64,000 bases of DNA, from NCBI GenBank assembly GCA_021299715.1, contig JAJTEL010000002.1:310001-374000 (forward strand). The letters run 5' to 3'. Made by a program: the position numbers and the translations under genes. The notes under the pieces were generated by a model. That model did no database searches. It saw only the letters and a program-made list of their open reading frames with translations, and was not told the DNA's origin. Of the stretch, positions 8,837-54,281 are shown in pieces; position 1 is the first letter of the stretch; every line of letters starts with the position of its first letter. This DNA is from Ilumatobacteraceae bacterium. Lineage in GTDB: Bacteria > Actinomycetota > Acidimicrobiia > Acidimicrobiales > Ilumatobacteraceae.

Positions 8837-8865
8837 CTACCGTTAACCCCACGGGGGTAGCGGAC

Positions 8866-10622: not shown

Positions 10623-10653
10623 GCTCCTGAATTTGCGCGTGGCGAATTAGGTC

Positions 10654-10659
10654 TACAGT
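10654..10659 (+). promoter_or_regulatory. -10 element TACAGT, leaderless promoter
   Basis: Six nt separate TACAGT from the ATG at 10666, and no Shine-Dalgarno sequence is present. Confidence 0.55.
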
Positions 10660-10665
10660 GGTGCT

Positions 10666-11442: not shown

Positions 11443-11478
11443 CTGAGATACTTTCCCCAGGGATTACGAGGGGGACAC

Positions 11479-12708: not shown

Positions 12709-12710
12709 TT

Positions 12711-13460: not shown

Positions 13461-13492
13461 AGGGACATTTTGACACATTTTGGTCGGACCGT

Positions 13493-13520
13493 CCCTTATT
13501 TCATAAGGGTGAAAACACCC
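13493..13520. promoter_or_regulatory. Overlapping inverted repeats, candidate NrtR-like operator
   Basis: CCCTTAT-TTC-ATAAGGG (13493-13509) shares its GGG with a second repeat, GGGTG-AAAA-CACCC (13507-13520). The first is centred about 38 nt before the predicted start of the ADP-ribosylglycohydrolase transcript and lies in the divergent gap with the regulator gene. A third short palindrome, GGTCGGACC, is at 13482-13490. The operator role is inferred from position and symmetry only. Confidence 0.4.
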
Positions 13521-13526
13521 ATGTGC

Positions 13527-13532
13527 TATATT
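13527..13532 (+). promoter_or_regulatory. -10 element TATATT for the ADP-ribosylglycohydrolase operon
   Basis: TATATT predicts a start near 13539, giving an mRNA leader of about 40 nt that includes the 16-bp palindrome and a good ribosome site (AGAAGGAG, 13569-13576). Confidence 0.5.
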
Positions 13533-13552
13533 CTAGTCACATCTACAATTAA

Positions 13553-13568
13553 CCCCAGGTACCTGGGG
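13553..13568. repeat. Perfect 16-bp palindrome directly before the ribosome site
   Basis: CCCCAGGTACCTGGGG abuts AGAAGGAG. As DNA it could be an operator; as RNA its two halves could pair within one molecule only with a very tight loop. It is not a terminator, since no T-run follows. Confidence 0.5.
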
Positions 13569-13580
13569 AGAAGGAGTCCC

Positions 13581-34801: not shown

Positions 34802-34807
34802 TAGAGT
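34802..34807 (+). promoter_or_regulatory. Putative -10 element TAGAGT for tRNA-Cys
   Basis: TAGAGT lies 29 nt before the tRNA, leaving a leader of about 20-23 nt. A weak CTCC-TTAG-GGAG hairpin at about 34772-34784 separates it from the methyltransferase gene. Confidence 0.4.
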
Positions 34808-34836
34808 TGAACCGTTGTGATGTTCGCATCACTTCT

Positions 34837-34911
34837 GGCGACGTGGCGGAATGGCTTACGCAGCGGCCTGCAAAGCCGTTTATCCGAGTTCGATTCTCGG
34901 CGTCGCCTCCA
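34837..34911 (+). tRNA. tRNA-Cys (anticodon GCA)
   Basis: Acceptor arms GGCGACG and CGTCGCC pair perfectly. The anticodon arm GCGGC-CTGCAAA-GCCGT holds GCA, and the T arm is CGAG-TTCGATT-CTCG. CCA is encoded at 34909-34911. An open frame of the acyl-CoA ligase runs through the tRNA but is not its true start. Confidence 0.96.
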
Positions 34912-34927
34912 TTGTCCGTCTATTCCT

Positions 34928-34941
34928 GTGACGGCAGTCAC
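34928..34941. promoter_or_regulatory. Operator-like palindrome GTGACGGCAGTCAC
   Basis: Thirteen of 14 bases match the perfect palindrome GTGACTGCAGTCAC found at 40888 and 54147. Here it lies between the possible -35 and the -10 (34945-34950) of the acyl-CoA ligase gene, so binding would block transcription. Confidence 0.55.
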
Positions 34942-34944
34942 GAC

Positions 34945-34950
34945 TACCGT
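34945..34950 (+). promoter_or_regulatory. -10 element TACCGT, leaderless promoter
   Basis: TACCGT, 6 nt, ATG at 34957. It fixes the start of the acyl-CoA ligase downstream of tRNA-Cys. Confidence 0.55.
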
Positions 34951-34956
34951 TGCGTT

Positions 34957-36642
34957 ATGCCAACACGCGCCGAGGCCATCGCCGAACTCACCGCTCCTGG
35001 GTCAGTCTTTGAATTGGAGACGGTTCCCGTGTTTGGGAACCCGGTTCGCGTCTTCAAGAATGCTCCTGCCACATTGCGCGATGTGTGGCTTGCTGCAGGT
35101 GCGCGCGGCGATATTCCTTACTTCCATTTCAACGGGCACAGCATTTCGTACGCCGAAGCTCACTCCCAGGTTGTTTCCACTGCTGCATGGCTGATGTCGC
35201 GCGGGGTACGCAAAGGCGATCGGGTCGCAATCGGTATGCGCAATTACCCAGAGTGGGCCTTGGCACATTGGGCATTGCAATGCATTGGCGCAGTAACGGT
35301 CAGTTTGAACGCATGGTGGATTGCAGAAGAATTGAAGTACGCATTCACTGACTCTGGAGCAACCGCTGCAATCGTTGATGGCGAACGACTCGAACGTTTG
35401 TCAGACCAGATGTTGGCCGACTGTGGAGTGCATTCGGTTGTGGTGGTACGCGCTGACGCTCGCCCTGGAACCTTTGCGTGGACTGATGTCAGTTCCAACG
35501 CGTCTGCGGTATTGCCTGACGTAAGTATTCATCCTGACGACGACGCCACCATTTTGTACACATCGGGAACAACCGGACTTCCGAAGGGGGCTGCAGGCAG
35601 TCACCGTAACTACGTCACGAACATTTGGAATGGGCTGATTGGAACTGCAGTTGCGGCAAAAATTGCAGGTGTAGTTCCCCTTGCAGCATCGACTCCGAAA
35701 CCTCAAGTCACCGCATTCAGTACTTTTCCGTATTTTCATATTGCGGGCTTATGCGGAATGATCTCGAATACTTATAACGGCTCTGCAATTGTGGCTCAAT
35801 ACAAGTGGGATCCGCAGGAAGCGTTGGAACTCATTCAGCGATACAAGGTGAATTCATTCGGTGGTGTTCCCACAGTTGTACGTTCACTCATGGAACATCC
35901 CGCTATTGACAACTATGACTTGTCAAGCCTTGTTGCAATTTCGCAAGGTGGGGCTCCCGTCGCACCCGATTCAGTGGCGTCAATTGAATCCCGTTTTGCC
36001 GGAAAAGTAAGCGCTGGAAATGGATATGGGTTGACAGAAACAACGGCAGCAGTCATTGCGAATAGTGGCGCTGCGTACTTTGCGCGAAAAGACAGTGTTG
36101 GTTTGCCACACGTGGGAACCGATGTGCGCATTGTCGACGAAGATGGACACGATGTCCCTTCAGGTTCTATTGGTGAAGTCTGGATTTACGGTCCAAACAA
36201 TGTTCGCGGGTACTGGAATAAGCCAACCGAGACCGCTAAAGCGTTTACGAACGGATGGTTTCACACAGGTGATGCCGGATTCATGGACTCAGACGGCTTC
36301 GTCTACGTCGTTGACCGTATTAAAGACATGGTGCTGCGCGGTGGAGAGAATGTGTATTGCGTCGAAGTAGAAACTGTTCTCTTTGAACATGGTGCTGTGC
36401 GTGATTGTGCAGTTATCGGATTGCCTCATGCCAAGTTGGGCGAAGAAGTAGCAGCGGTGTTGGTTGCCGCAGACGGACACGGCCCAGCAGACGAAGATGA
36501 CATTCTCCAACTGCTGGGCTCGCGCCTGGCTGCCTTTAAAGTTCCGACTCGCGTCTTCTGGCACTCAGGGGAGTTGCCTCGTAATGCCACAGGCAAAGTG
36601 CTGAAGAAAGACCTTCGCGAAACGTATTCGGCGCAGAACTAA
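34957..36642 (+). CDS. Acyl-CoA ligase (AMP-binding family)
   Basis: 561 residues of the ANL superfamily. The P-loop YTSGTTGLPKGAAG is at about residues 200-213, YGLTETTAA follows, then GWFHTGDAG, the hinge/A8 region KDMVLRGGENVYCVEVE and the A10 Lys in NATGKVLKKD. The enzyme adenylates a carboxylic acid and forms its CoA thioester, probably a fatty or related acid. It starts a monocistronic unit with an operator-like palindrome in its promoter. It overlaps the convergent substrate-binding protein gene by 4 nt. Confidence 0.92.
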   Translation: MPTRAEAIAELTAPGSVFELETVPVFGNPVRVFKNAPATLRDVWLAAGARGDIPYFHFNGHSISYAEAHSQVVSTAAWLMSRGVRKGDRVAIGMRNYPEWALAHWALQCIGAVTVSLNAWWIAEELKYAFTDSGATAAIVDGERLERLSDQMLADCGVHSVVVVRADARPGTFAWTDVSSNASAVLPDVSIHPDDDATILYTSGTTGLPKGAAGSHRNYVTNIWNGLIGTAVAAKIAGVVPLAASTPKPQVTAFSTFPYFHIAGLCGMISNTYNGSAIVAQYKWDPQEALELIQRYKVNSFGGVPTVVRSLMEHPAIDNYDLSSLVAISQGGAPVAPDSVASIESRFAGKVSAGNGYGLTETTAAVIANSGAAYFARKDSVGLPHVGTDVRIVDEDGHDVPSGSIGEVWIYGPNNVRGYWNKPTETAKAFTNGWFHTGDAGFMDSDGFVYVVDRIKDMVLRGGENVYCVEVETVLFEHGAVRDCAVIGLPHAKLGEEVAAVLVAADGHGPADEDDILQLLGSRLAAFKVPTRVFWHSGELPRNATGKVLKKDLRETYSAQN

Positions 36643-38414
36643 TTCACTCGGTACACACCAGTCCAATCAATTCCCCAGTTCGTCACTTTCCGTGGCATTA
36701 CTTGGTCGGGCAAGTCGAGTTTCCCTATTCCTTCAATTCCTGCGGCGGTAAAGAGGGAGTAGTAGTGCGACGCCATTGCGCCCATGAAAGAATTCTTTTG
36801 CAGGTACTCGGTTCCTTTTCGGAACTCGTCTCGCGCATCATCTTTATCTGCTCGTGCTTGACCGGCGTAGAAGTAGTCGTCAACCGCGGTGTCCGCATGG
36901 TGGTTCAAGCCCAAGACGCGACCCAAGCTTGACTGAAAAAGTGGACGAACAGGGTTAGTCGATGTTGTCGGATACGCATTCGTCACAATGAACGGAATGT
37001 TGAACGCTGCGTCATCGCCTTCAAACAATGTGAGAAAAACAGCATCGTACGAGTTGTAAAACTGACCCTTTGCAATGTTGGGACTTGGGTTAAAGATCTT
37101 GGAAAGAGTGAGGGCCGTCTGTTCTACGGAATAGTTCGCAACAATATTGCACTTACTCCACATTGACTTCAGAAATCGACCGTTGGCCTGTGATGCCAAA
37201 CTGGTGTCAACTGGAAAGACAAAGCTAAGAGCATTTTTGCCCGTATCGCGTTTGTATTGCTCTACATAACTTTTCGCTTTGTTGACGTCGTATTTCGGAA
37301 ACCCTGATTGGTTGTACATAATGTTCGCTGAGCCAACAATGGATGTGGCAACGTCACCCTCACCTTTAAGCCGAACATCGTTGAATGATTTTCTGTCAAG
37401 ACAGCTCAGCACTGCCTGGCGTGCAGACGTGTTGGTAAACGGTGAATTGGGTTTTCCTTGGTTCAGCCACAACGATGGATAATACTCCGTGGGAGATGCA
37501 AACTCGGTGGTGTCTCCGGCGTTTTCACGCAGGTCCTTAATAAAGACCGCGTCGGCAGCCGCGGAGAAGAACGACGCGGCATAGGTTCCAGTTCGAACGG
37601 CGTTAGACCGTTGAGCACCTTCTGCGACGAGGTCGAAAGTAATTTGATCGAGATAGGGCAGTTGTTGATTGGTGTCGGGGTCAGTTCGCCAGTAGTTGGG
37701 GTTTTTCACCACTACAAGTTGGGATGGATTCCAACTCTTCAAGGAGAAAGGGCCTGTGCCTATTGGTTTTTGTGCGCATGTCTCGGCGTCTTCAAGTTGA
37801 CGAGGCGAGCGCATAACGAATCGTCCGGAGGCGTACAACGTGGCCAGAAAATCGTATTGTGGCCTATCGAGAGTGAACTCCACTTCGTATTCCGAAACGG
37901 CTCGAAAACCAATGATGTTGGCAGTGAAGGCCGTTGCGGTTCCAATGGTGTGAGACTTTGATTGAAGTCCCGCCAATCCGCTTTGGGCAAAAGCACCTGC
38001 GGCAACTTGTCCGGTAATTGCAGCGAAGTTCTTTACGACTGCTTCTGCGTTGAATGTAGTGGCGTCATGAAAAGTAATGCCTTCCCGCAACACAATTGTC
38101 CATGTTTTGAGATCTGCAGAAGGTGTCCCACTTTTTGCAAGTAGTCCGACCGTTCGTCCATCCGCACTCTTTTCAAACAGTGGTTCCAGCATTGTTCGGG
38201 TTGCCATGAGTGCAGAGTTTGCTGGGTTGTTTCCTATGCAGAATCCAGGAAACGTGTCAAAGATGCCCACCTTGATGTTGCCGCCTTGTTGTGGGGTGGG
38301 TTCATTGGCTGAGTCGCTACCACAACTCACCATAAGAGTGGCAGCGAGTGCTAGCAGAACTGCGCCACTAATTTTTCGGGTCCATTGTTTCTTCGCCAGT
38401 GCCCTGAACTTCAT
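36639..38414 (-). CDS. Family 5 ABC substrate-binding lipoprotein
   Basis: 591 residues. The signal peptide ends in the lipobox LMVSC (Cys31), so it is membrane-anchored. The mature part has the peptide/nickel-type (SBP family 5) pattern: YWRTDPDTNQQLPYLDQI, a RREGI-like FHDATTFNAEAV and a C-terminal WGIDWTGVYRVN. It would capture peptides or similar solutes outside the membrane. No permease or ATPase genes are adjacent, unlike the SBP at 52052-54112, so it may share that transporter. The C-terminal W-G-(I/F)-(D/E)-W-(T/S)-G pattern recurs in all three SBPs of the window. Confidence 0.9.
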   Translation of the reverse strand: MKFRALAKKQWTRKISGAVLLALAATLMVSCGSDSANEPTPQQGGNIKVGIFDTFPGFCIGNNPANSALMATRTMLEPLFEKSADGRTVGLLAKSGTPSADLKTWTIVLREGITFHDATTFNAEAVVKNFAAITGQVAAGAFAQSGLAGLQSKSHTIGTATAFTANIIGFRAVSEYEVEFTLDRPQYDFLATLYASGRFVMRSPRQLEDAETCAQKPIGTGPFSLKSWNPSQLVVVKNPNYWRTDPDTNQQLPYLDQITFDLVAEGAQRSNAVRTGTYAASFFSAAADAVFIKDLRENAGDTTEFASPTEYYPSLWLNQGKPNSPFTNTSARQAVLSCLDRKSFNDVRLKGEGDVATSIVGSANIMYNQSGFPKYDVNKAKSYVEQYKRDTGKNALSFVFPVDTSLASQANGRFLKSMWSKCNIVANYSVEQTALTLSKIFNPSPNIAKGQFYNSYDAVFLTLFEGDDAAFNIPFIVTNAYPTTSTNPVRPLFQSSLGRVLGLNHHADTAVDDYFYAGQARADKDDARDEFRKGTEYLQKNSFMGAMASHYYSLFTAAGIEGIGKLDLPDQVMPRKVTNWGIDWTGVYRVN

Positions 38415-38453: not shown

Positions 38454-38529
38454 GAGATGGTCGAAACTCTTCACCATAAGAATTTGTACTCAAGTGAACG
38501 TGCGTATCTTTGTTCATGCAATTGCCACT

Positions 38530-38535
38530 TACTCT
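38530..38535 (+). promoter_or_regulatory. -10 element TACTCT, leaderless promoter
   Basis: TACTCT, 6 nt, ATG at 38542, which identifies the true start of the small downstream gene rather than an ATG at 38494. Confidence 0.5.
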
Positions 38536-38541
38536 CATCGC

Positions 38542-38967
38542 ATGAAGAACGATGTATTAGAAAAGATTCGAGATCGATCCGTAGTTGCAGCAGTCACTCA
38601 CGATCATGCGCGCGTTTGGCTACTGAACGATGAGAGCCGCGACCCGGTATGTGAGGTGACTCGCGCAACTCCTATTGTGCGACATGTTCGTGCGGCACAA
38701 GATCATCACGGCCACGCAAGCGAGGTGGCAGAAGTTCCCTATTTCACTGAACTTGCCGCAGTTTTATCAGTGGCATCAAATGTTGTTCTGGTGGGTCACG
38801 GTGTTGGAAAATCAAATGCAGTAAATCGTTTTATCAACCATTTGGACGTTCACAGGGAAGCATTGCGAAACAGAATTGCTGCAACAGGTACAGCGAATAT
38901 CACTGCTATGTCTGGTGGCCAGATTATTGAAGAGGCGCGACGCAAATGGGCGCAAGCTGACCACTAA
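38542..38967 (+). CDS. Small eRF1-like / translation-associated family protein, function unknown
   Basis: 141 residues. The middle has a beta strand ending in VVLVGHGVGKSNA and then NRFINHLDVHREALRNR, ending with ANITAMSGGQIIEEARRKW. This order is seen in a group of short bacterial proteins related to the C-terminal part of eRF1/Pelota-type domains; the assignment is tentative and no function is established. It is leaderless and single. Six bases separate it from the convergent HheG-like gene. Confidence 0.65.
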   Translation: MKNDVLEKIRDRSVVAAVTHDHARVWLLNDESRDPVCEVTRATPIVRHVRAAQDHHGHASEVAEVPYFTELAAVLSVASNVVLVGHGVGKSNAVNRFINHLDVHREALRNRIAATGTANITAMSGGQIIEEARRKWAQADH

Positions 38968-38973
38968 TAAGTT

Positions 38974-39714
38974 TTAGCTCCAGCCGCCCGAGAAGGACAC
39001 GTATTGTCCGGTGGCAAAAGTGCTGCGACCATCTAGATACGGCAAACAAAAGTGCGCAAATTCATCAAGAGTCCCCAGTCGAGCCAGCGGAACTTGCGAC
39101 TCAATTTTCTTGCGTACATCGGGATCATCGGCGCCTGTTGCCCGGCGAAACTCTGGGAAGTCCATGTAGTTGGTTCCCACTGAGTTCACTTGAACGTTGT
39201 GGCGTGCCATTTCCTGTGCGGCATTTTTGGCCAGCATGGTGGCAGCGGCACGCATTGACGAATACAGGGGAGCACCAGGCGTTGGGCGAGACCCGGATGC
39301 GCTGGTGATGACCAGTACCTGACCGCTTCTTTGTTCCACCATGACGGGAAGAACGGCTTTTAGGAATTCGTAGGGGGCAACAACGCATCCTGAGTACACC
39401 TTGTTGAGGTCTTCTCGTGATGACTTCACAAGAGACCCCGTCACTATGAGACCCGAAGACATTGCGGCACAGTCAATGCGACCAAACGCAGACATCGCAG
39501 CGTTCACTAATGCCGAAGCGGTTTCTGGCTGTGCCAAGTCTCGAACATTGTCAACACCTACCGCGTTGACACCCAGCGATTCGAGTTCGTGAATGAGTCC
39601 GTCGGCAGGGTTGCCAATCACTATGTCGTGCCCGCTTTCTGCGAGACGTTTTGCCAGCGGTGGGCCAACATAAAAGCTGCCGTCGTTAATCAGTGCCACT
39701 CTGCGTGTTGTCAT
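38974..39714 (-). CDS. Halohydrin dehalogenase-like protein (HheG type) of the SDR superfamily
   Basis: 246 residues with an SDR fold but no TGxxxGxG motif and no Lys in the active site. The diagnostic halohydrin dehalogenase pattern S-X12-Y-X3-R is exact: Ser138, Tyr151, Arg155. Motif 1 (T-X4-F/Y-X-G) is present as N10-X4-Y15-X-G17, with Asn for Thr. SSGLIVTG, GTNYMDFP, QVPLARLGT and FSGGW closely resemble, from memory, HheG of Ilumatobacter coccineus. Such enzymes convert vicinal haloalcohols to epoxides and halide without NAD(P). ATG 39714 lies 6 nt from a -10. Convergent with the eRF1-like gene, divergent from an NPD-type flavoenzyme. A non-dehalogenating SDR relative is the alternative. 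Confidence 0.78.
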   Translation of the reverse strand: MTTRRVALINDGSFYVGPPLAKRLAESGHDIVIGNPADGLIHELESLGVNAVGVDNVRDLAQPETASALVNAAMSAFGRIDCAAMSSGLIVTGSLVKSSREDLNKVYSGCVVAPYEFLKAVLPVMVEQRSGQVLVITSASGSRPTPGAPLYSSMRAAATMLAKNAAQEMARHNVQVNSVGTNYMDFPEFRRATGADDPDVRKKIESQVPLARLGTLDEFAHFCLPYLDGRSTFATGQYVSFSGGWS

Positions 39715-40936: not shown

Positions 40937-42661
40937 ATGAAACAACGGGGAATCTCCGTTCGCTCGCGAATGGTGAAGAGATTCGGAGCTGTTGCAGCGG
41001 TGAGCCTTGTTGGTTCGCTGTTTGTGGCCTCTGGATCACAAGCCGCAGAGCGTCCATCTGCAACGCCGAAGTACGGCGGCGAAATCACAATGCTTATCGA
41101 TGGAAACATTGCCGGACATTGTTTTGCCAATGCCTTGCCTGGTGGCCCATTGGGTGCATCTCGCTCTATCTACGAAAGCCTTTTCGAACGTAGCAGCACC
41201 GGCAAATACGTCGGTTATCTCGCCAAGTCCGCGACATCGACCGACAACAAGGTGTGGACCATCGCACTGCGTGAAGGAATTAAGTTCTCAAACGGTGAAG
41301 AATTCAACGCCACCGTTGTGAAGCAAAATATCGACATTGGACGTGGTGCGCTTGTGCCCTCACGTACATATGCATCAACAGGTATTGGCGTTAACGCCAA
41401 CATTCTCACCGTAGATGTGGTTGACAACTTGACGGTAAAGGTCACTCTCGACCGTCCAGACAACGACTTCCTTGGTTTGATGTACCGCGCTGGCCGTTAC
41501 GTCATGCGTGCACCTGCACAGATTGCTGGAACAGCCAACTGTTCAACCAACCCAATCGGAACCGGTCCATTCATGTTGCAGTCCTTTAAGCCGGACGAGC
41601 AGATTGTTGTTCGCAACCCGAACTACTGGCGCAAAGATGCCGCAGGGCGTCAGCTTCCATACCTCGACAAGATCACATTCCTTGTCGTGAAGGAAGCATC
41701 ACAGCGTGCAGCAGCAGTTCGTACAGGTCGTGGCGACGCTGCGTTCTTCGTACAAGGCGATGCAACATTCACACAAGACCTTGCGAAGAGAAAGTCTGCT
41801 GTAACCGGATACAAGTCAACGCAGACTGCATGGGGACAATGGATGCCAAACGTCAACAAGGCTGGCTCTCCATTCAAGTTCCGTAACTGCCGTTTGGCTG
41901 CTGCCTACTCCATGGACTGGAATTCATACAACAAGGTTCGCTTGCGCGGCACTGGCAACTACAGCGGTTCAATTGTTGGTAAGGATCATCCAATGTTCAC
42001 GCTGAAGGGTGCACCGAAGTACGACTTGAAGAAGGCACGTACTTATCTGCAGCGTTGCAACACCGAGCTTGGTACAGCCGGCCCGATGAGAGTTACGTTG
42101 TACGCGGACTCAAGCACGCAGTCACAGAACAACACGCGCTTTATCCAGAAGTCGATGGAAAAGGCCGGAATCCTTGTGAATGATCCATTCATTGGTGAAT
42201 CAGCCCTGTTGGTTTCAAAGATCTACAAGGGTGGCGGAAACGACTTCGACTTCGCACAGGGCACACCTGCTGAAGGTGCAACTCCTGGCTATGTCTTCCC
42301 GTTCTTCGTCAGCAAGGCATTCCCGCTTACTTCAACGAACCCAATCAAGGACACGCTATTGGGTAAGGGATATAACACAGTTATTGCTTTGGGTAACCAC
42401 AGCGACGACAAGGTTGACGAGTTGATTTACGGTGCACAGGCTGAGTTGAACCCTGCAAAGGCAAAGAAGAAGTGGCAAGCAGCCACCGCCTACCTCCAGG
42501 ACCAGGGATACGCAATCCCAGCCGTTCATGGTGGCTTCCAAGTCTTCGTCAACAACAACGCGAAACTGCGTGGCATCGGAACACTGAAGATGCCTAGCGG
42601 TGATAAGGCCGAAATTGTTGAAACCAAGGGCTTCGAGTGGACCGGAGTCTGGAAGGGCTAA
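40937..42661 (+). CDS. Family 5 ABC substrate-binding protein (secreted)
   Basis: 574 residues. A Sec signal peptide of about 36 residues ends in SGSQAAER, an AxA-type site without a lipobox Cys, so the protein is probably exported and not lipidated, unlike the copy at 36639. The mature part shows the peptide-binding family pattern: PKYGGEITMLIDGNIAGHCF, the LREGIKFSNGEEF segment and a C-terminal KGFEWTGVW. GGGGGG lies 7 nt before the ATG. No transporter genes follow; a strong terminator does. Its promoter carries the shared palindrome, linking it to the transporter at 48-54 kb. Confidence 0.92.
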   Translation: MKQRGISVRSRMVKRFGAVAAVSLVGSLFVASGSQAAERPSATPKYGGEITMLIDGNIAGHCFANALPGGPLGASRSIYESLFERSSTGKYVGYLAKSATSTDNKVWTIALREGIKFSNGEEFNATVVKQNIDIGRGALVPSRTYASTGIGVNANILTVDVVDNLTVKVTLDRPDNDFLGLMYRAGRYVMRAPAQIAGTANCSTNPIGTGPFMLQSFKPDEQIVVRNPNYWRKDAAGRQLPYLDKITFLVVKEASQRAAAVRTGRGDAAFFVQGDATFTQDLAKRKSAVTGYKSTQTAWGQWMPNVNKAGSPFKFRNCRLAAAYSMDWNSYNKVRLRGTGNYSGSIVGKDHPMFTLKGAPKYDLKKARTYLQRCNTELGTAGPMRVTLYADSSTQSQNNTRFIQKSMEKAGILVNDPFIGESALLVSKIYKGGGNDFDFAQGTPAEGATPGYVFPFFVSKAFPLTSTNPIKDTLLGKGYNTVIALGNHSDDKVDELIYGAQAELNPAKAKKKWQAATAYLQDQGYAIPAVHGGFQVFVNNNAKLRGIGTLKMPSGDKAEIVETKGFEWTGVWKG

Positions 42662-42724: not shown

Positions 42725-42756
42725 TTCTCAGGTTCAATCACATGTGCCGTTCGGCG

Positions 42757-42762
42757 TACGGT
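42757..42762 (+). promoter_or_regulatory. -10 element TACGGT, leaderless promoter
   Basis: TACGGT, 6 nt, ATG at 42769. Confidence 0.55.
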
Positions 42763-42768
42763 AGAAGC

Positions 42769-44301
42769 ATGAAGGTAGCGCTGACCATTGTTGACCATCT
42801 CCGTCGGGCCGAGCAGGTCTACGGGGATCGCATCGCCGTAATTGATGAACCCGATCAGCCAGGTGAATCGTGGGGAACCATCACGTACGCCGAGATGGCA
42901 CGTCGTGCACGTGCGCAAGCAGCGGCGTTAGATGCACTGGGCGTCCCGCATGGTGCTCGTGTTGCCATGGTGAGTCAAAACTCGGCCCGGCTACTCACCG
43001 CGTTCTTTGGTGTCAGCGGCTACGGACGTGTTCTTGTTCCAATCAACTTCCGCTTGGTTGCTGATGAAGTGTCCTACATCGTTGAGCACTGTGGAGCTGA
43101 AGTTCTCATTGTTGATCCCGAGCTTGAAGAGGCGATGGCTGCGGTGACCGCCAAACATAAGTTCATTATTGGTGCAGATTCTGACAAGGTTCTTTATCTG
43201 TACGACCGTGAGCCACAACCATGGACTCCGGACGAAGACGCCACGGCAACAATTAATTACACAAGCGGAACAACGGCGCGCCCTAAGGGTGTGCAATTAA
43301 CCCATCGCAGTTTGTGGGTGAACTCCGCGGTGTTCGGATGGCAAATGAATGTGAACGAGTCAGATGTGTATCTGCACACACTTCCACAGTTTCATGTGAA
43401 CGGATGGGGAATGGTGTACGCGGTTACTGCTATGGGCGGCACTCACGTGATTCTGCGCAAAGTAGACGGGGCAGAGATTCTTCGTCGCATGAGCCAACAC
43501 GGAATCACCATGTTGTGCGGTGCTCCCGCTGTCGCCAACATGATTTTGGATGCAGCATCCGAGACTGGGCTCTCCACATCGCGAGGCTCGGTTCGTATGG
43601 TGGTTGCTGGTGCACCACCACCAACGAAAACCATTGAGCGAATTGAAACCGAACTTGGTTGGGAGTTCGTGCAAATCTACGGCCTCACCGAAACCTCTCC
43701 ATTGCTCACTATGAATCGCACACGCAAAGAGTGGTCTGCACTACCCATTGCGGAACGTGCGGCCAAATTGGGTGCCGCTGGTGCACCTGCGTTGGGTGTA
43801 GAGATTCAGGTGGACGCTCAAGGCGAGGTTCTTGCACGCGGCAACACAGTGATGCAGGGTTATTGGAACCAGCCTGCGGAGACCGAGAAAGCCATCGTTG
43901 ACGGATGGTTCCACACGGGCGACGGTGGCTATATCTCGGAAAACACGTATCTCACCATTGCAGATCGCAAGAAAGACGTCATTGTGTCGGGAGGTGAGAA
44001 TGTGTCGTCAATTGAGGTTGAAGATGCAGTGTTCTCTCATCCCGATGTTGCCGAAGTTGCAGTCATTGGAATTCCTGATGAGAAGTGGGGAGAAAAAGTT
44101 CTGGCCCTGGTGGTAAAGACTCCAGACTCAGCCCTCACGGAAGCCGATTTGATTGCCTATGTGCGCACCAAACTTGCGGCGTACAAGTGCCCCAAGGTGG
44201 TGGAGTTCCGCACCGAACTTGCCCGAACGGCTACCGGAAAGCTTCAGAAGTTCATTCTTCGTGCCCCGTACTGGGAAGGCTTCGAACGACAGGTGAATTA
44301 G
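42769..44301 (+). CDS. Acyl-CoA ligase (AMP-binding family)
   Basis: 510 residues of the ANL superfamily: INYTSGTTARPKGVQ (P-loop, about residues 158-172), YGLTETSPLL, GWFHTGDGG, the hinge KKDVIVSGGENVSSIEVE, and the A10 Lys in TATGKLQKF. It activates a carboxylic acid to its CoA ester. Its P-loop has TTARPKG rather than TTGLPKG. Next on the same strand is an acyl-ACP desaturase with its own promoter, so a fatty-acid role is plausible. Confidence 0.92.
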   Translation: MKVALTIVDHLRRAEQVYGDRIAVIDEPDQPGESWGTITYAEMARRARAQAAALDALGVPHGARVAMVSQNSARLLTAFFGVSGYGRVLVPINFRLVADEVSYIVEHCGAEVLIVDPELEEAMAAVTAKHKFIIGADSDKVLYLYDREPQPWTPDEDATATINYTSGTTARPKGVQLTHRSLWVNSAVFGWQMNVNESDVYLHTLPQFHVNGWGMVYAVTAMGGTHVILRKVDGAEILRRMSQHGITMLCGAPAVANMILDAASETGLSTSRGSVRMVVAGAPPPTKTIERIETELGWEFVQIYGLTETSPLLTMNRTRKEWSALPIAERAAKLGAAGAPALGVEIQVDAQGEVLARGNTVMQGYWNQPAETEKAIVDGWFHTGDGGYISENTYLTIADRKKDVIVSGGENVSSIEVEDAVFSHPDVAEVAVIGIPDEKWGEKVLALVVKTPDSALTEADLIAYVRTKLAAYKCPKVVEFRTELARTATGKLQKFILRAPYWEGFERQVN

Positions 44302-48024: not shown

Positions 48025-49134
48025 TTATTCAGCGATGGGGTGGTGGCAGGCCACGAAGTGACCCACTGAGACCTCACGCAACTGGGGCTCTTCTTGTGCA
48101 CACTTTTCTGTTGCCATAGGGCAACGCGTGCGGAAGCGACAACCAGAAGGTGGGTTGGCTGGTGATGGTGGCTCACCCTGAATGAGATTGCCCGACAGTG
48201 GACGGTCTGGGTCAGGAATGGGCACGGAGCCCACAAGAGCACGTGTGTAATGGTGCTTTGTGTTTTGGTAGATCTCGTCGGGTGTGCCAATTTCGCACAC
48301 CTTGCCCAAGTACATCACCATTACGCGGGTGCTCACAGCCTTCACCACTGCAAGGTCGTGCGAGATGAAGATGAGTGTGAGGCCGTAGCGATCTTTCATG
48401 TCTTGCAGCAGGTTCAAAATTTGAGCCTGCACCGACACGTCGAGAGCCGACACCGGTTCGTCACAGATGATCATTGTTGGGTCGAGTGCTAGTGCGCGTG
48501 CAATGCTGATTCGCTGGCATTGGCCACCAGAGAATTCATATGAGCGACGGTCGCGTACAACAGCAGGGTCAAGGTTTGCTGCACCAAGAAGTTCGTCGAT
48601 CTTTGCATCGATTTCTACTTGGTTGCCGCGGTTCCACACACGCAACGGTTCGGCAAGCACTTCGCTAACAGGCAAGCGTGGGTCGAGCGATGAAATGGGG
48701 TCTTGGAAGATCATCTGCATGGCGGGACGCATGTCTCGCAGCTCTTTCTTACCCATGGACGTGAGTTCCTTTGAAAGGAAGTTCACTGAACCACCGGTGG
48801 GATGTGGCAACTGCAAAACAGCCTTGCCAAGCGTTGACTTACCACAGCCAGATTCGCCCACAACAGCAAGCGTTTCTCCACGTACAAGGTCGAAGCTGAC
48901 ATTAGAGACTGCCTTAACGACGTTGCCCTTACCCACGTTGAACTCAACGTTCAAGTTACGAACAACCAATACACGATCGCTGTCGGGGCGATGGTGGGGG
49001 AAGAGTTGCTTTTCTTCTTCTGGCGAGAGAGGACGCTTTGCCTCTTGCTCTGCCAGGTACTTCTTTACGCTGTTGAGGCCTTTAAAGCCCAGACGCAAGA
49101 GAATCTTGATAACGAGACCATCTAGGGCAGTCAT
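48025..49134 (-). CDS. Oligopeptide-type ABC transporter ATPase (DppF/OppF-like)
   Basis: 369 residues. An extra N-terminal arm of about 55 residues precedes the ATPase: Walker A GESGCGKST, signature FSGGQCQR, Walker B MIICDEP and the Opp-type C-terminal extension with Cys residues (GCRFRTRCPMATEKC). It is the second ATPase of the operon, and its ATG overlaps the previous stop (TAATG). The longer N-terminal arm (LRLGFKGLNSVKKYLAEQEA) is unusual for the family. Confidence 0.93.
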   Translation of the reverse strand: MTALDGLVIKILLRLGFKGLNSVKKYLAEQEAKRPLSPEEEKQLFPHHRPDSDRVLVVRNLNVEFNVGKGNVVKAVSNVSFDLVRGETLAVVGESGCGKSTLGKAVLQLPHPTGGSVNFLSKELTSMGKKELRDMRPAMQMIFQDPISSLDPRLPVSEVLAEPLRVWNRGNQVEIDAKIDELLGAANLDPAVVRDRRSYEFSGGQCQRISIARALALDPTMIICDEPVSALDVSVQAQILNLLQDMKDRYGLTLIFISHDLAVVKAVSTRVMVMYLGKVCEIGTPDEIYQNTKHHYTRALVGSVPIPDPDRPLSGNLIQGEPPSPANPPSGCRFRTRCPMATEKCAQEEPQLREVSVGHFVACHHPIAE

Positions 49135-50108
49135 TAGTTTGCTCCTCCGATTGGGAACCAGCAACGGTAGTAGTGGTTGTTGCCACCGTCGGTAAGTGGT
49201 GGTGTTTCGGTACGGCACTTGTCTGTGGCATACGCGCAACGATTTGCGAAGGCACAGCCCACCAGTTCTTTGGTTGGGTCGGGGAGGCGACCTTCAATGA
49301 CAGGAAGGCGGGTTCCGGTGGGTGTTTCCAAACGCGGAATGGACTTCAGCAACGCTTCTGTGTATGGCATTTTCATGTTGCTGAACAACTGCCTGGTTGG
49401 CGCGTATTCAACAATGTTGCCTGCGTACATCACCGCAATTTTGTCGGTGTGGCCGGCAACCACGCCAAGGTCGTGAGTGACCAGAATCATTGCCATATTC
49501 GATTCGCGACGCAGTTCGGTGAGAAGTTCCAATACTTGCGCCTGAACAGTTACGTCAAGCGCCGTTGTGGGCTCGTCTGCAAACAGCAACTGAGGTTCAC
49601 ATGACACTGCGATAGCAATCATGATTCGCTGACGCATACCACCAGACAACTGATACGGGAACTTGCGCAACATTCCCTCAGGATCGGGAATACGAACGCG
49701 TTTCAGAATTTCTACAGCCTTTGCTTTCGCTGCCTTTTTGTCCATTCCGAGACGAACAATGAGACTCTCTGTTACCTGTGTGCCAATACGGCGAACAGGG
49801 TTGAGTGCTGTCATGGGATCTTGGAAGATCATGGCCATATCGATGCCCCACAATTCGCGCACAACGTCGGGTGCGGCAGTGAGAAGCTCTTGATCTTTGA
49901 AGACAACAGAGCCAGTCCGTGTTGCGGTGCTGGGCAGAAGTCCCATGATTGCGCGGGAGAGAACAGTTTTTCCTGAACCAGACTCGCCTACAACACCCAG
50001 GCTTTCGCCCTTGTTGAGAGTGATGGACACATCGCGCACAGCTCTGAGATTGCCGCGAGGCGTCGCGAACTGAACAGACAGCCCGTCGACGGTAAGTAAC
50101 TCGCTCAT
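49134..50108 (-). CDS. Oligopeptide-type ABC transporter ATPase (DppD/OppD-like)
   Basis: 324 residues. Walker A GESGSGKTV, Q-loop FQDPMTALNP, signature LSGGMRQR, Walker B LLFADEP, and the Cys-bearing C-terminal domain (GCAFANRCAYATDKC) that in Opp/Dpp ATPases binds an iron-sulfur cluster. It powers uptake with the DppF-like subunit. ATGA overlap with the permease gene before it. Confidence 0.94.
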   Translation of the reverse strand: MSELLTVDGLSVQFATPRGNLRAVRDVSITLNKGESLGVVGESGSGKTVLSRAIMGLLPSTATRTGSVVFKDQELLTAAPDVVRELWGIDMAMIFQDPMTALNPVRRIGTQVTESLIVRLGMDKKAAKAKAVEILKRVRIPDPEGMLRKFPYQLSGGMRQRIMIAIAVSCEPQLLFADEPTTALDVTVQAQVLELLTELRRESNMAMILVTHDLGVVAGHTDKIAVMYAGNIVEYAPTRQLFSNMKMPYTEALLKSIPRLETPTGTRLPVIEGRLPDPTKELVGCAFANRCAYATDKCRTETPPLTDGGNNHYYRCWFPIGGAN

Positions 50109-50962
50109 ATCTTTGACTCCCTCTTGTCCAGGCTTGATCTGACGTAGTCGCCGAACCAGTTACTTGAGATAACGGTTAGAGCGATGAAGAGCGCAGGTAG
50201 GTATACCTCGTGCGGGCTGTAGGCAATATTGCCGCGTCCGTTTGCCAGCATTGAGCCCCAGCTGGCTCCACCGGGAATACCAATTCCCAAAATGGAGAGT
50301 GAGCCTTCAACGATGATGACCGAACCGATGGCCAAGAAACCGATGGACAAGATGGCCGGTGCAACGTTGGGAAGAATGTGCTTGAAGATGATGGTGAAGC
50401 TCTTTGTTCCCATGGACTTCGATGCCAGAACAAATTCACGGTTGGTCCACTGCAATGCAGAACCGCGTGAGATACGACCCAAAATTGGAATGATGACGAT
50501 GATTAGTGAGGCGATAAGCACCATCACTCGGCGATTCGTTGACGCTGGATTGTCGGCGTCTGAATACGCAAACACCGACAACAAAGCAAGTGACAACACC
50601 AAGTTTGGAATTGACAACAAGATGTTGAAGATTGACACCACGATGAGGTCGTACTTACCGCGGAAGTATGCAGCGGTAATTCCGATGAGTGCTCCAATTC
50701 CGCCACCAATTAATACCGATGCGAAAGAAATGAACACCGACAAACGGGCTCCGTTTACAAGACCAGCCAACATGTCGTAGCCGTCTTGAGTGGTACCTAG
50801 AAGGTGGCGCGGACTAAATGGTCCGACACCAAGGTCATCGAAGAATGCTTCATCCCATTGTGGCAATGGCAAGATCCATCCGAACAGGCCAATGAAGACC
50901 ATGAGTCCTAGCCAGGACCCAGCGAGATAAAACCCGACTGGTCGACTCTTTCTTGTTTTCAC
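50105..50962 (-). CDS. Oligopeptide-type ABC transporter permease (DppC-like)
   Basis: 285 residues with about six membrane helices, the DppC-type N-terminal segment ending in PRHLLGTTQDGYDML, and the EAA-type loop near SRGSALQWTNREFVLASKSMG. It forms the channel with the DppB-like subunit. It ends in a 4-nt overlap with the first ATPase gene. Confidence 0.93.
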   Translation of the reverse strand: MKTRKSRPVGFYLAGSWLGLMVFIGLFGWILPLPQWDEAFFDDLGVGPFSPRHLLGTTQDGYDMLAGLVNGARLSVFISFASVLIGGGIGALIGITAAYFRGKYDLIVVSIFNILLSIPNLVLSLALLSVFAYSDADNPASTNRRVMVLIASLIIVIIPILGRISRGSALQWTNREFVLASKSMGTKSFTIIFKHILPNVAPAILSIGFLAIGSVIIVEGSLSILGIGIPGGASWGSMLANGRGNIAYSPHEVYLPALFIALTVISSNWFGDYVRSSLDKRESKI

Positions 50963-50995
50963 GCTTTTCCGTCCTCTTGCTTTATAAAAATGTTC

Positions 50996-51955
50996 TTAGC
51001 CACGACGTTCCCGAGTACGGGGATCGATGGCGTTGGTGAGTAGGTCGACAATTGTGTTGAAGAACACGTAGGCGAACGAGATGAGCAGAATGAGTGTCTG
51101 CATAGCAATTACTTGACGAGCGCCAATTGAGTAGAACACTTCGTATCCAATTCCGGGAATAACGAAAATGGTTTCGATAACGATGGTGCCACCGATGAGG
51201 CCGCCCATGTTGAGCGCGGCAGATGTAAGCAGGGTGGTGCTAGACGGACGGAACACGTGGAACCACAAGACTCGCTTGTTGGAGATTCCCTTTGAGGCCG
51301 CCATGGTGACGTAGTCCTCTTTGAGTGTTGCTATGACGTCGGTGCGCAACAAGCGTGTATACGACGAGGTGAGGCCAACGGCGATGCTGATGACGGGAAG
51401 AACCATGAGCTTGAAGTGTTGACCCAAGTTCTCGCTTGGCTTTACATAGCCAATGGGGTCTACCCAGCCCAGCTTCACAGCAAAAATGAGCGACATGATC
51501 AGTGCGAGCGCAAAGCTGGGGAAGGAAACAAGGGTGAACAATGTGCTGCTGACGATGCGATCGAAACGGCTGTTCTCTTTATATGCAGAGATAAGACCAA
51601 GTGGAATGGCAAACGAAAGTGCAACAATTTGCGCGTACAGAATGAGTTGAAGAGAAACGGGGAGAGTTGCTTTGATGACTTCAAGCACATCGCGTGTTCC
51701 GCCATTTAAGTAGTACTTGCCGAAATCTCCGCTGAGAAGACCGCTAAACCAATGCCAAAAAAATCCGAAGACTCCGCGGTCGAGACCTACTTCAACGCGA
51801 ATGGCGCTGACAACTCCTTCTGGTGCACCGCCAGCAATAAGTTGTGCCGGATCACCAGGTAACTGCCACATAAGGCATGACAACAAGAACGAAGCAATGG
51901 TGATAACCAACGCCATTCCAACCAGGCGTTTTGCGATTACTTGCAGAAAATTCAT
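50996..51955 (-). CDS. Oligopeptide-type ABC transporter permease (DppB-like)
   Basis: 319 residues, about six membrane helices. The N-terminal helix is followed by WQLPGDPAQLIAGG, as in DppB, and the cytoplasmic EAA-type loop is TRLLRTDVIATLKEDYVTMAASKG. First permease of the operon; it follows the SBP gene after a 96-nt gap that holds a strong stem-loop. Confidence 0.93.
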   Translation of the reverse strand: MNFLQVIAKRLVGMALVITIASFLLSCLMWQLPGDPAQLIAGGAPEGVVSAIRVEVGLDRGVFGFFWHWFSGLLSGDFGKYYLNGGTRDVLEVIKATLPVSLQLILYAQIVALSFAIPLGLISAYKENSRFDRIVSSTLFTLVSFPSFALALIMSLIFAVKLGWVDPIGYVKPSENLGQHFKLMVLPVISIAVGLTSSYTRLLRTDVIATLKEDYVTMAASKGISNKRVLWFHVFRPSSTTLLTSAALNMGGLIGGTIVIETIFVIPGIGYEVFYSIGARQVIAMQTLILLISFAYVFFNTIVDLLTNAIDPRTRERRG

Positions 51956-51996
51956 CCGCCCCCCTTAGCTAATAAAACAATAGTAATTCAGAAGAA

Positions 51997-52025
51997 GGAG
52001 CGACACCCCATTGGGGTGTCGCTCC
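51997..52025 (-). terminator. Strong stem-loop between SBP and permease genes
   Basis: A perfect 13-bp stem GGAGCGACACCCC/GGGGTGTCGCTCC with a 3-nt loop. On the minus strand it is followed by TTCTTCTGAATTA, which is T-rich but not a clean T-run. It probably acts as an attenuator or as an mRNA-end stabiliser, so the SBP is made in excess over the membrane subunits. Confidence 0.75.
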
Positions 52026-52051
52026 CGCTTCACACGTAAATTCAGTGAAAT

Positions 52052-54112
52052 TTACTTAGTTGGCTTTTGAACGCCGCTCCAGTCAATTCCCCAGTTGGTT
52101 ACTGTTCGCTGAGTAACGCCGGTCTTCAACTGAACCTTGCCAATGTTGGTCAGGCCATTCTTCTTGTTCACAAACATTGTGTAGTAGAAGTGCTGGATTG
52201 AACCCATGTAGCCCTCTGTCTGCAGGTAAGCAGTACCTTGACGGTACAAACGCTGTGCTGCAGCCTTCGAGGTCTGAGCCTGTCCACCCTGGAAGAACTC
52301 GTTCACCTTGGTGTCTGTGTGCTTGTTGAGTCCGAGGACTGAACCAATGCTTGAAGCAAAGATTCGGGCCGAAGAGGTTGAACCTGCATACGCATTTGTT
52401 AATACGAATGGAAGGTTGAACGACACGTCGGTTCCTTCGAACAGCAAGATTGCAATTGCGTCGTAGGCGTTCTGGTCCGCAGCAGATGATGCTCCGGAGT
52501 TGAATGCCTTGGCAATGATCTGTGCTGCTTCTTCAACAACCATGTCCACCTTGATGCCACACTTTGCCCATGTCGCAATAAGGAACTTTGCGTTGCCTTG
52601 TGACGACGATGAAACGTCTGCAGGAATAGTGAACTTCAACTCTGTGTTCTTTGCTGGATCTTCAGCCTTCCAAGCAGCCACATAGCTCTTCGACTTGGCA
52701 ACGCTGTATGCCTGGAATCCCTTTGTGGTGTACATGGTGCTGCGTGGTCCAACAAGTGACTTGGCGACTACGCCTTCACCGCGGGTACGAACCTTGACAA
52801 AGTTTGCACGGTCCAAGCAGTGCAGAACAGCCAAGCGGGCATTCTTGCTCTTGAATGGAGAGTTCGCCTTGCCCTGGTTCAACCAGAGTGATGGGTAGTA
52901 GTCGTTTGGTGACTTGAATTCGGAAACAAGGCTCTTGCGCTTACGAAGGTCTTGAATGAACTTTCCTTCGGCTGCGGCTGAGAACATTGCTGCGTCATAT
53001 GCACCGGTACGAATTGCGGCTGCGCGCTGTGAACCTTCTTTAATGTTCACAAACTTGATGCCGTCCAAGTATGGCAACTTGTCACCAGTCTTTGGATCCG
53101 TGCGCCAGTAGCTGGCGTTGCGGACAACATTCAATTCATCGGTGCTAACGGTTGTGTGGTTGTCGGCTGTCTTGAATGGGCCCGTACCAATTGGGCGACC
53201 AGTTGAACAGCGGTCCTTGCTTGCTGTGCCAGTGAACTGTGCTGGTCCACGCATGAACAAACGACCAGATGCGTACAGCATTCCGGGAACGTCGTTCTGT
53301 GCACGGTCAAGCGTGAGACGCACCGTGTGTGAGTCGACAACATCAACCTTGGTGATGTTTGCACCGAAAGCAGCTGACGTACCCAAACCAATTGATGATT
53401 GGAAGAAGGTGAGGTCAGGAAGCTTGTCGAGTCCGATGGACTTGAGGTAGCCACCAGCCTTGTTTCCACCAGACAAGAGAACGTCAAGCGAACCCTTGTC
53501 GGCAAATGTGCCCAAAGCGGTCAGCAACGAGAGACGTCCAACTTTGTCCTCTGTTTTCATGGTTGATGTAACACCAAGGTTGGTCAGCACGGCTGCACCA
53601 GTTGCACCAGCAGCAGCACTGCTCAGTGTGGTGAGAACGGTTGTTGCATGAGTGATGTACGGCGCAGTTGCTGCTGCAGCGAGAGCGGCGTTAGCAGCCT
53701 TGTGACCCAAGAGGTAATCAAGGTTTGCCTTCACTGCATCTGCATTGAAGTCGGTGCCATCGTGGAACTTAATTCCCTTACGCAGGTAGATGTCCCATGT
53801 CTTCATGCCGTTCGAGCTCTTTGAGCCCGATGCAAGCAAGCCGATCATGTCTCCACCATTGGTCTTTTCAAACAATGTTTCGTAAATGGTACGCATGACC
53901 ATCAACGAAGAGTTTGCGTTGTTGTTTGCAAAGCAGAATCCGGCGTTGGTGTCAAAAATGGCCACCTTCGCTGTTCCGCCGTACTTGGAAGTCGCTTGCG
54001 GTTTTGCCGCCTGACTTCCAGCTGCAGTCACAGTGGACACCGCAACAGTTGCAGCAAGTGCTGCACCTACGCGACGCAACACTCGTGACCGATTGGTCTG
54101 ACGTTGAGTCAT
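52052..54112 (-). CDS. Family 5 ABC substrate-binding protein with an internal insertion
   Basis: 686 residues, 110 longer than its paralogue at 40937. The signal peptide ends in GSQAAKP, and no lipobox is present. Residues about 137-238 are an extra Ala/Thr/Gly-rich segment (NAALAAAATAPYITHATTVL and after) between FNADAVKANL and the ANITKVDVVD strand, which are adjacent in the other two SBPs. The remaining fold, including the WGIDWSGV end, is standard. ATG 54112 is preceded by GGGGGT. It heads the complete Dpp-like operon that runs to 48025 and has the shared palindrome at its promoter. Confidence 0.93.
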   Translation of the reverse strand: MTQRQTNRSRVLRRVGAALAATVAVSTVTAAGSQAAKPQATSKYGGTAKVAIFDTNAGFCFANNNANSSLMVMRTIYETLFEKTNGGDMIGLLASGSKSSNGMKTWDIYLRKGIKFHDGTDFNADAVKANLDYLLGHKAANAALAAAATAPYITHATTVLTTLSSAAAGATGAAVLTNLGVTSTMKTEDKVGRLSLLTALGTFADKGSLDVLLSGGNKAGGYLKSIGLDKLPDLTFFQSSIGLGTSAAFGANITKVDVVDSHTVRLTLDRAQNDVPGMLYASGRLFMRGPAQFTGTASKDRCSTGRPIGTGPFKTADNHTTVSTDELNVVRNASYWRTDPKTGDKLPYLDGIKFVNIKEGSQRAAAIRTGAYDAAMFSAAAEGKFIQDLRKRKSLVSEFKSPNDYYPSLWLNQGKANSPFKSKNARLAVLHCLDRANFVKVRTRGEGVVAKSLVGPRSTMYTTKGFQAYSVAKSKSYVAAWKAEDPAKNTELKFTIPADVSSSSQGNAKFLIATWAKCGIKVDMVVEEAAQIIAKAFNSGASSAADQNAYDAIAILLFEGTDVSFNLPFVLTNAYAGSTSSARIFASSIGSVLGLNKHTDTKVNEFFQGGQAQTSKAAAQRLYRQGTAYLQTEGYMGSIQHFYYTMFVNKKNGLTNIGKVQLKTGVTQRTVTNWGIDWSGVQKPTK

Positions 54113-54146
54113 TGAGTTACCCCCAAAGTTGGCACACCACCGTGGT

Positions 54147-54164
54147 GTGACTGCAGTCACGATA
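54147..54164 (-). promoter_or_regulatory. Promoter -10 TATCGT overlapping operator GTGACTGCAGTCAC
   Basis: On the minus strand TATCGT (54164-54159) runs into the perfect 14-bp palindrome (54160-54147), in the same register as at 40884-40901. A second inverted repeat, CACCAC-CGTGGTG, is adjacent at 54136-54147. This controls the SBP-permease-ATPase operon. Confidence 0.7.
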
Positions 54165-54281
54165 GCAGGGGGTGCAATGTTGCTCCTAGACAAACGCAAA
54201 GAAAACAACTTGTGTTGGGCAATCGATTAATTGCACATGGTCACAAGGGTGAGTAGTTCTAACTGCCGCTCAGGTGGCTAA

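Follow-up and report, generated by a model that had tools for sequence, protein, structure and literature searches.

A probable loop-less G-type halohydrin dehalogenase in an Ilumatobacteraceae genome, and the sulfatase and haloalkane dehalogenase genes near its relatives

We analyzed a 64,000-nucleotide stretch of DNA (the window) from an Ilumatobacteraceae bacterium (GenBank assembly GCA_021299715.1, contig JAJTEL010000002.1, positions 310,001 to 374,000) and focused on one of its genes, a complete open reading frame of 246 codons that fills positions 38974..39714 of the minus strand, where the plus strand is full of stops. A search of the PDB, alignment, trees and fold comparison indicate that this gene very probably encodes a halohydrin dehalogenase (HHDH) of the G-type, from a loop-less branch that includes AbHheG. 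Such an enzyme would interconvert vicinal halohydrins and epoxides without a cofactor. The predicted protein carries motif 2 of HHDHs, S-X12-Y-X3-R, as residues 138-155 (39250..39303, minus strand) with the catalytic triad S138-X12-Y151-X3-R155, as well as the stretches SSGLIVTG (residues 86-93) and GTNYMDFP (residues 180-187; 39154..39177, minus strand). Motif 1, T-X4-F/Y-X-G, is described as the nucleophile pocket that replaces the dinucleotide loop of short-chain dehydrogenases/reductases (SDRs) (PMC11976700). It is retained in part only: residues 10-17 (39664..39687, minus strand) read N10-X4-Y15-X-G17, with Y15 and G17 present and Asn at the Thr position. Y15 and N182 are the two positions that separate the deposited AbHheG mutant 8hqp from 8h8y, the alignments being compared by eye. 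The signature of NAD(P)-dependent SDRs, TGxxxGxG plus YxxxK, is absent: LINDGSFYVG stands where the glycine-rich dinucleotide loop is expected, and Arg155 takes the place of Lys. Near the site at which HheG of Ilumatobacter coccineus has a flexible loop (PMC11536340), the alignment places GNPADG (residues 34-39; 39598..39615, minus strand), and the loop region is 12 residues shorter than in that enzyme. Judged by its open frame, by relatives in the same genus with 70-77% identity, and by NG86 dN/dS ratios of 0.08-0.14 in the four of five comparisons that yielded a value, with synonymous sites near saturation, the gene looks functional.

When the protein was searched against all PDB sequences with phmmer, the top three entries, which include 8hqp, fell between 1e-97 and 8e-96 (8h8y, E = 1.1e-97; 7wkq, 5e-96). 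HheG and its variants followed at about 1e-50 to 1e-51 (5o30, 3.7e-50), and the first sequence other than HheG, from SDR-fold proteins, appeared only at 1.1e-21. At the level of sequence, this gap in E-values excludes a chance resemblance to the HheG type. Membership of the G-type is further indicated by identities of 60% to 8h8y and 7wkq and 43% to HheG, which exceed the level of <30% between subtypes (PMC4989007), and it agrees with our trees, which were built without HheA-F sequences and with each genus represented by up to two loci per side. A maximum-likelihood analysis of 64 rows separates 12 HheG-like rows, a group defined beforehand from an earlier tree, from all others by a branch supported at 100/100; the window protein falls among the others, as do 8h8y, 7wkq and the other loop-less sequences. 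Five SDRs from its own genome split off with an SH-aLRT of 97 and very long branches. An AlphaFold2 model built from 18 sequences reached a mean pLDDT of 82, with lower confidence near residues 90-100 and 140-150 and over some of the C-terminal third. We compared this model by fold only: among the 50 Foldseek matches listed, ranks 1-25 were all chains of AbHheG, 7wkq or HheG, and NAD(P)-dependent SDRs and reductases started at rank 26 with 24% identity.

The closest known systems are AbHheG (8h8y; mutant 8hqp) and the HHDH of 7wkq, both from an 'Acidimicrobiia bacterium' and equal in length to the window protein. Like the window protein, they have no N-terminal loop, and they share the triad, Y15, G17 and GTN(F/Y)MDFP with it; the motif-1 position is Ser in 8h8y and Gly in 7wkq instead of Asn. 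Tree placement, a length of about 246 amino acids, the missing loop and the residues Y15, G17 and N182 thus all place the window protein in this branch. The PDB gives the molecule name of 8h8y as 'alpha/beta hydrolase', although the sequence is of the SDR fold and the entry title says AbHheG. HheG of I. coccineus (5o30, 6i9u/v/w) has the same triad and GTNYMDFP and comes from a host in the same GTDB family, but differs in its longer loop region and in its motif-1 Thr. Other solved HHDHs (6a41, 4z9f, 9ldq, 1zmo and HheC, 1pwx), which presumably share the SDR scaffold and the HHDH motifs, were found at E-values of 5e-21 to 4e-17, mixed among ordinary SDRs. Scaffold and motifs are described as common to HHDHs in a 2016 review (PMC4989007). 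Taken together, the enzyme is of a known kind, of which the window adds a new example; the more interesting part is the gene linkage seen in its relatives.

To place the motif-1 residue and the loop among relatives, we aligned the window protein with three sequences from the PDB and those of 100 other loci. Including the window, 84 of these 101 loci are 50% or more identical to the window protein (loop-less type) and 17 are less so; this split is one of convenience, as two loci (L098 and L140) below 50% fall outside the HheG-like group of the tree. The S-Y-R triad is conserved in 83 of the 84 loop-less-type loci (one is truncated) and in all 17 others. The motif-1 Thr is retained in only two of 83 aligned loop-less-type loci, one of the 84 being without that stretch. 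At this position we found Ala in 49, Asn in 15, Ser in eight, Gly in four and His in two loci, and Cys, Asp and Pro in one each; in 16 of the 17 other loci it is Thr. The loop region comprises 21 residues in the window protein, 8h8y, 7wkq and 83 of the 84 loop-less-type loci (again one truncated), compared to 33 in HheG and 32-34 in 12 of the 17 others. By these distributions, neither Asn10 nor the short loop is peculiar to the window copy, and both belong to the branch.

Both features nevertheless weigh against the assignment in the light of published work. The flexible N-terminal loop, which the window protein does not have, is described as unique to the G-type (PMC10099379), and its full deletion from HheG yields an inactive protein (PMC11536340). 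In HheC and HheG, the motif-1 Thr is reported to tolerate only similar residues (PMC11976700). On the other hand, 'many' HheG homologues, not all, are said to have the loop, and a homologue from an Acidimicrobiia bacterium has a short DPAE stretch instead (PMC11536340); 7wkq carries DPAE at this site. Since 8h8y (Ser) and 7wkq (Gly) also lack the loop, the objections from Thr and loop are answered, although for Asn itself only presumably. Because these two crystallised proteins likewise deviate from motif 1, the label 'HHDH' rests on the branch and not on the pair T-X4-F/Y-X-G and S-X12-Y-X3-R, which has been used to mine HHDHs (PMC4989007). As 81 of the 83 aligned loci have no Thr, the published motif-1 query would miss nearly the whole loop-less branch. 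This query overlooks a branch of the G-type that could be a source of new biocatalysts.

An earlier note, made from the letters of the window alone, had already proposed an HheG-type HHDH, and PDB search, trees, fold search and triad conservation support it. The residues and stretches it named (N10, Y15, G17, S138, Y151, R155, SSGLIVTG and GTNYMDFP) lie exactly where it put them, and the translated sequence bears out the missing TGxxxGxG and the Arg for Lys. Its reading of Asn for Thr in motif 1 stands as an observation but not as something unusual in the branch, and its view that both motifs define HHDHs held for motif 2 and not for motif 1, the Thr being absent from 8h8y and 7wkq as well. 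It had suggested a test for placement inside the HheG clade. The protein groups with 8h8y and 7wkq beside HheG, in a tree without HheA-F, but outside the HheG-like group itself. A placement among NAD(P)-dependent SDRs, named there as a refutation, was not seen, as the five SDRs of its own genome fall outside, and the structure model it called for gave the fold ranks reported above.

We subsequently studied the surroundings of the 101 loci. Genes were called by a simple codon model and then clustered, and the identities of recurrent neighbor clusters were taken from one member each. Within five genes of the HHDH gene, we repeatedly found an S1 sulfatase of about 757 amino acids (25 loci, nine genera), an SDR resembling 17-beta-hydroxysteroid dehydrogenase type 4 (16 loci, nine genera), acyl-CoA ligases (18 loci, seven genera), a TetR-type regulator (17 loci, seven genera), cytochrome P450s (nine loci, seven genera), a DinB-like protein (12 loci, five genera) and a haloalkane dehalogenase (11 loci, five genera). 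For the 84 loop-less-type loci, tblastn with thresholds of our choice (at least 250 bits for the sulfatase, at least 130 bits for the haloalkane dehalogenase) detected a sulfatase within 3 kb in 28, a haloalkane dehalogenase in 10 and either or both in 35. Within 9 kb these numbers were 30, 17 and 40, and the 40 linked loci fall in 12 of 34 genera. Neither gene was found within 9 kb at any of the 17 other-type, mostly HheG-like loci, which include that of HheG itself (L104), nor at any of 36 control loci of ordinary SDRs from the same set of genomes. In Fisher's test, the comparison with the controls gave p = 2e-8, that with the 17 other loci 8e-5, and that of genus versus genus 1.5e-4, where the controls were assumed to be 0/34 genera without an individual count; all three values ignore relatedness. 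The mean flank searched was 13.8 kb for the 84 loci, 11.9 kb for the 17 and about 15.6 kb for the controls; contig ends cut many loci, and three control loci have less than 9 kb of flank. Because of its overlap with an Hhe locus, control L202 was removed ahead of the count; L236, which came from weaker SDR matches in a genome that was already represented, was left uncounted. No sulfatase or dehalogenase match was present in either. L234 and L235 are Hhe loci and not controls.

Over the 45 rows of the tree that were scored, 17 of them linked and 28 unlinked, the linkage changes at least nine times; another 16 rows were excluded for their short flanks. The arrangement also varies: the HHDH gene is divergent from the sulfatase gene in g1, g6, g12, g79, g129, g160 and g199, in tandem with it in g24, g25 and g94, and convergent in g48, and in many loci the gaps between match ends are down to 10-90 bp. 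The closest relatives of 8h8y among the sampled loci, four in g6 with 81-83% identity, have the sulfatase 55-79 bp away, whereas the window copy has no sulfatase or haloalkane dehalogenase nearby. In the genus of the window, two of 12 loop-less-type loci are linked (51-53% identity to the window protein; several of the other ten are short). Both, L092 (genome G147) and L093 (G150), are divergent copies that form a tandem with a haloalkane dehalogenase gene and have a sulfatase at a distance of about 2.2 kb; the two-per-genus rule kept them out of the tree. At L025, which is not among the 101 loci, a dehalogenase and a truncated sulfatase fragment likewise lie 2.5-3.4 kb from the Hhe gene. Long frames in g6 (up to 1079 amino acids, reaching upstream) that could have been HHDH fusion proteins were rejected, as they overlie the neighboring sulfatase gene on the other strand. 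L036, the most distant match of one homologue search, was also set aside: it is an ordinary SDR, with TGASSGIG and YxxxK, whose stretch follows another reductase-like one within a long frame. At four loci (L108, L109, L112 and L127, in g160, g79 and g126), a molybdopterin oxidoreductase-family protein is encoded a few genes from the HHDH gene, and a protein of 157-183 amino acids recurs there, with no Pfam match for the one scanned.

By their sequences, the neighboring dehalogenases and sulfatases look intact. All 15 members of the haloalkane dehalogenase cluster have HG(N/E/Q)PxW, and 14 have the Asp-Trp pair, which in these enzymes constitutes the nucleophile and a halide-binding residue. 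Linked dehalogenases exceed the NF002043 cut-off in 13 genomes (G189, G191, G193, G201, G202, G205-G208, G212, G215, G219 and G220), and for one member the closest haloalkane dehalogenases in the PDB are 4mj3 and 6f9o. C-S-P-T-R is present in 24 of the 25 members of the sulfatase cluster, one of which has the arylsulfatases 4cxk and 1hdh as its closest PDB entries.

HHDHs are used in synthesis and their natural roles are unsettled, so that a recurrent neighborhood provides a concrete class of substrates to test. By analogy, we infer activity of the window copy and a cofactor-free mechanism of ring closure and opening: Tyr151, tuned by Arg155, would act on the substrate hydroxyl, Ser138 would hold the substrate, and an anion pocket around Y15 and G17 would replace the NAD(P) site. 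The enzyme should also open epoxides with azide, cyanide and similar anions; epoxide ring opening by an HheG homologue of an Acidimicrobiia bacterium has been published (PMC11976700). In some relatives, the gene context suggests, with modest confidence, a role after desulfation. The S1 sulfatase would free the hydroxyl beside a C-halogen in a halogenated sulfate ester and, because an ester hydrolyzed at this place is a vicinal halohydrin, the HHDH could then close it to the epoxide, with the haloalkane dehalogenase stripping other halogens. That loop-less G-type HHDHs in general serve a natural pathway of the Acidimicrobiia for halogenated sulfate esters is a tentative proposal and, as it stands, a doubtful one. 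Its substrates in lakes could, speculatively, be algal chlorosulfolipids. These lipids have an internal chlorohydrin-sulfate pattern, with chlorines flanking sulfated carbons, and their breakdown would call for an enzyme that accepts internal, bulky halohydrins. Freshwater algae are reported to contain chlorosulfolipids (PMC2866472), and among the HHDH subfamilies only the G-type is said to be known for activity on sterically demanding cyclic epoxides (PMC10099379).

Several observations speak against such a role, and they feed alternative explanations. The HHDH gene may be a mere bystander, if sulfatase and dehalogenase genes are abundant in these Acidimicrobiia, cluster with each other, and only sometimes have an HHDH gene nearby; this is a serious alternative, a little short of an even chance. 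Indeed, 166 of 221 genomes of the family have a haloalkane dehalogenase over the cut-off and 195 have a sulfatase at E <= 1e-120. The two adjoin without an Hhe gene in nine of 20 dehalogenase-centred loci (the best dehalogenase of each of 20 hand-picked genomes, mostly one per genus). In I. coccineus such a pair is located at L182, away from HheG. The window's own genome has a similar module on contig C13 (L194, G000:C13:4001-24000, at about 8548-13957), in which an S1 sulfatase with CSPTR is flanked by two genes, a haloalkane dehalogenase that passes the cut-off with 380 bits and a dehalogenase-like gene that stays below it (223 bits); another dehalogenase over the cut-off lies on C3, and the HHDH gene on C10. 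Furthermore, 22 of the 34 genera and most copies in the window's genus, including the window copy, are unlinked. Against a bystander speak the contrast with the 36 control and 17 other-type loci, the repeated gains or losses of linkage on the tree, the several gene orders and the very short gaps in many loci.

It is also possible, though rather unlikely, that the protein is a G-type enzyme of the same fold with another anion-dependent natural reaction that involves no halide, e.g., the opening of epoxides by cyanide, nitrite or formate, or a reaction that detoxifies endogenous epoxides. Both N10 and the lack of a loop would go with this, as would the loss of the motif-1 Thr in nearly all aligned loci of the branch. 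The known activities are low: HheG shows 0.02 U/mg on 2-chlorocyclohexanol (PMC11536340), and HheG3 is stated, 'in analogy to its relatives', to have almost no dehalogenation of beta-chloroalcohols (PMC10099379), which suggests that the physiological reaction may be a different one. But the haloalkane dehalogenases within 9 kb of 17 of the 84 loci, with their Asp-Trp pair retained in 14 of 15 cluster members, point to halides. That the protein is an ordinary NAD(P)-dependent SDR oxidoreductase with only a chance likeness to HHDHs is highly improbable. Pfam and NCBIfam label the window protein only as a generic SDR, but its NCBIfam scores are far under the cut-offs (25 matches listed), and the Arg for Lys, the absent glycine-rich loop, the clade and the Foldseek ranks all argue for the HHDH assignment instead.

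To our knowledge, no cluster that combines sulfatase, haloalkane dehalogenase and HHDH genes has been described, and we consider this context of loop-less HHDHs to be new here. Among open-licence PMC papers, none contained both 'halohydrin dehalogenase' and 'sulfatase'; titles and abstract openings described no linkage of HHDH and sulfatase, and titles and abstracts revealed nothing relevant on bacterial breakdown of chlorosulfolipids. In the available text of a paper on a Psychrobacter alkyl-sulfate plasmid, there is no link between sulfatase and dehalogenase, and the lone mention of 'haloalkane' is a reference to DpcA. A Yangtze River paper, as far as its text was available, assigns haloalkane dehalogenase mainly to Actinomycetota in the results and to Pseudomonadota in the discussion, and does not contain 'halohydrin'. 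According to the 2016 review, only two of the HHDH genes then known lie in one operon together with an epoxide hydrolase gene, and other physiological functions of HHDHs cannot be excluded (PMC4989007).

The genome of the window (G000; 1.9 Mb, 93% complete) belongs to the same GTDB family as G111, the home of I. coccineus HheG, in agreement with the Acidimicrobiia/Ilumatobacter-type genome supposed in the earlier note. The HheG copy there, L104, matches the HheG T123G structure 6i9w except for Thr at the engineered position and one end residue that is not covered. Eight homologues of at least 70% identity were found in the named collection, in metagenome-assembled genomes titled Ilumatobacteraceae, Acidimicrobiaceae or Actinomycetota. 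One of them (91% over 186 amino acids) is from a bin named ErkenSummer, Erken being a lake, which would suggest a freshwater origin. With both branches counted, 67 of the 221 family genomes have homologues at E <= 1e-40, as do 10 of 396 genomes sampled across the phylum, each of these ten belonging to the window's class; at E <= 1e-38, homologues are present in 59 of 397 genomes sampled across the order.

Within the window, the gene stands alone as the earlier note said, although relatives in 12 genera do not. Tail to tail with it lies a plus-strand gene for 157 amino acids (38494..38967), which that note had called eRF1-like; it has no Pfam or NCBIfam match at 1e-3, and homologues occur in five further loci of the genus. 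On the other side, the flavoenzyme noted earlier is confirmed by Pfam and NCBIfam as a member of the nitronate monooxygenase/FabK-like family (PF03060; 39803..40759, plus strand), its gene being oriented divergently from the HHDH gene. This gene is not at the corresponding place in the same-genus loci L066-L070, and in the closest relative, L162, a 317-amino-acid gene of unassigned family takes its place. In the window and in L066-L070, the HHDH gene is flanked by family-5 solute-binding proteins and acyl-CoA ligases; in the window, these are binding proteins at 36639..38414 (minus strand) and 40937..42661 (plus strand) and AMP-binding acyl-CoA ligases at 34807..36642 and 42742..44301 (both plus strand). 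Proteins of the fatty acid desaturase family (PF03405; 44354-45259) and the 2OG-Fe(II) oxygenase superfamily (PF13532; 46798-47406) are also encoded nearby. About 8 kb from the HHDH gene, which has further binding proteins on either side, positions 48025-54208 hold an ABC transporter of the oligopeptide/dipeptide type, with two ATPases, two permeases and a family-5 binding protein.
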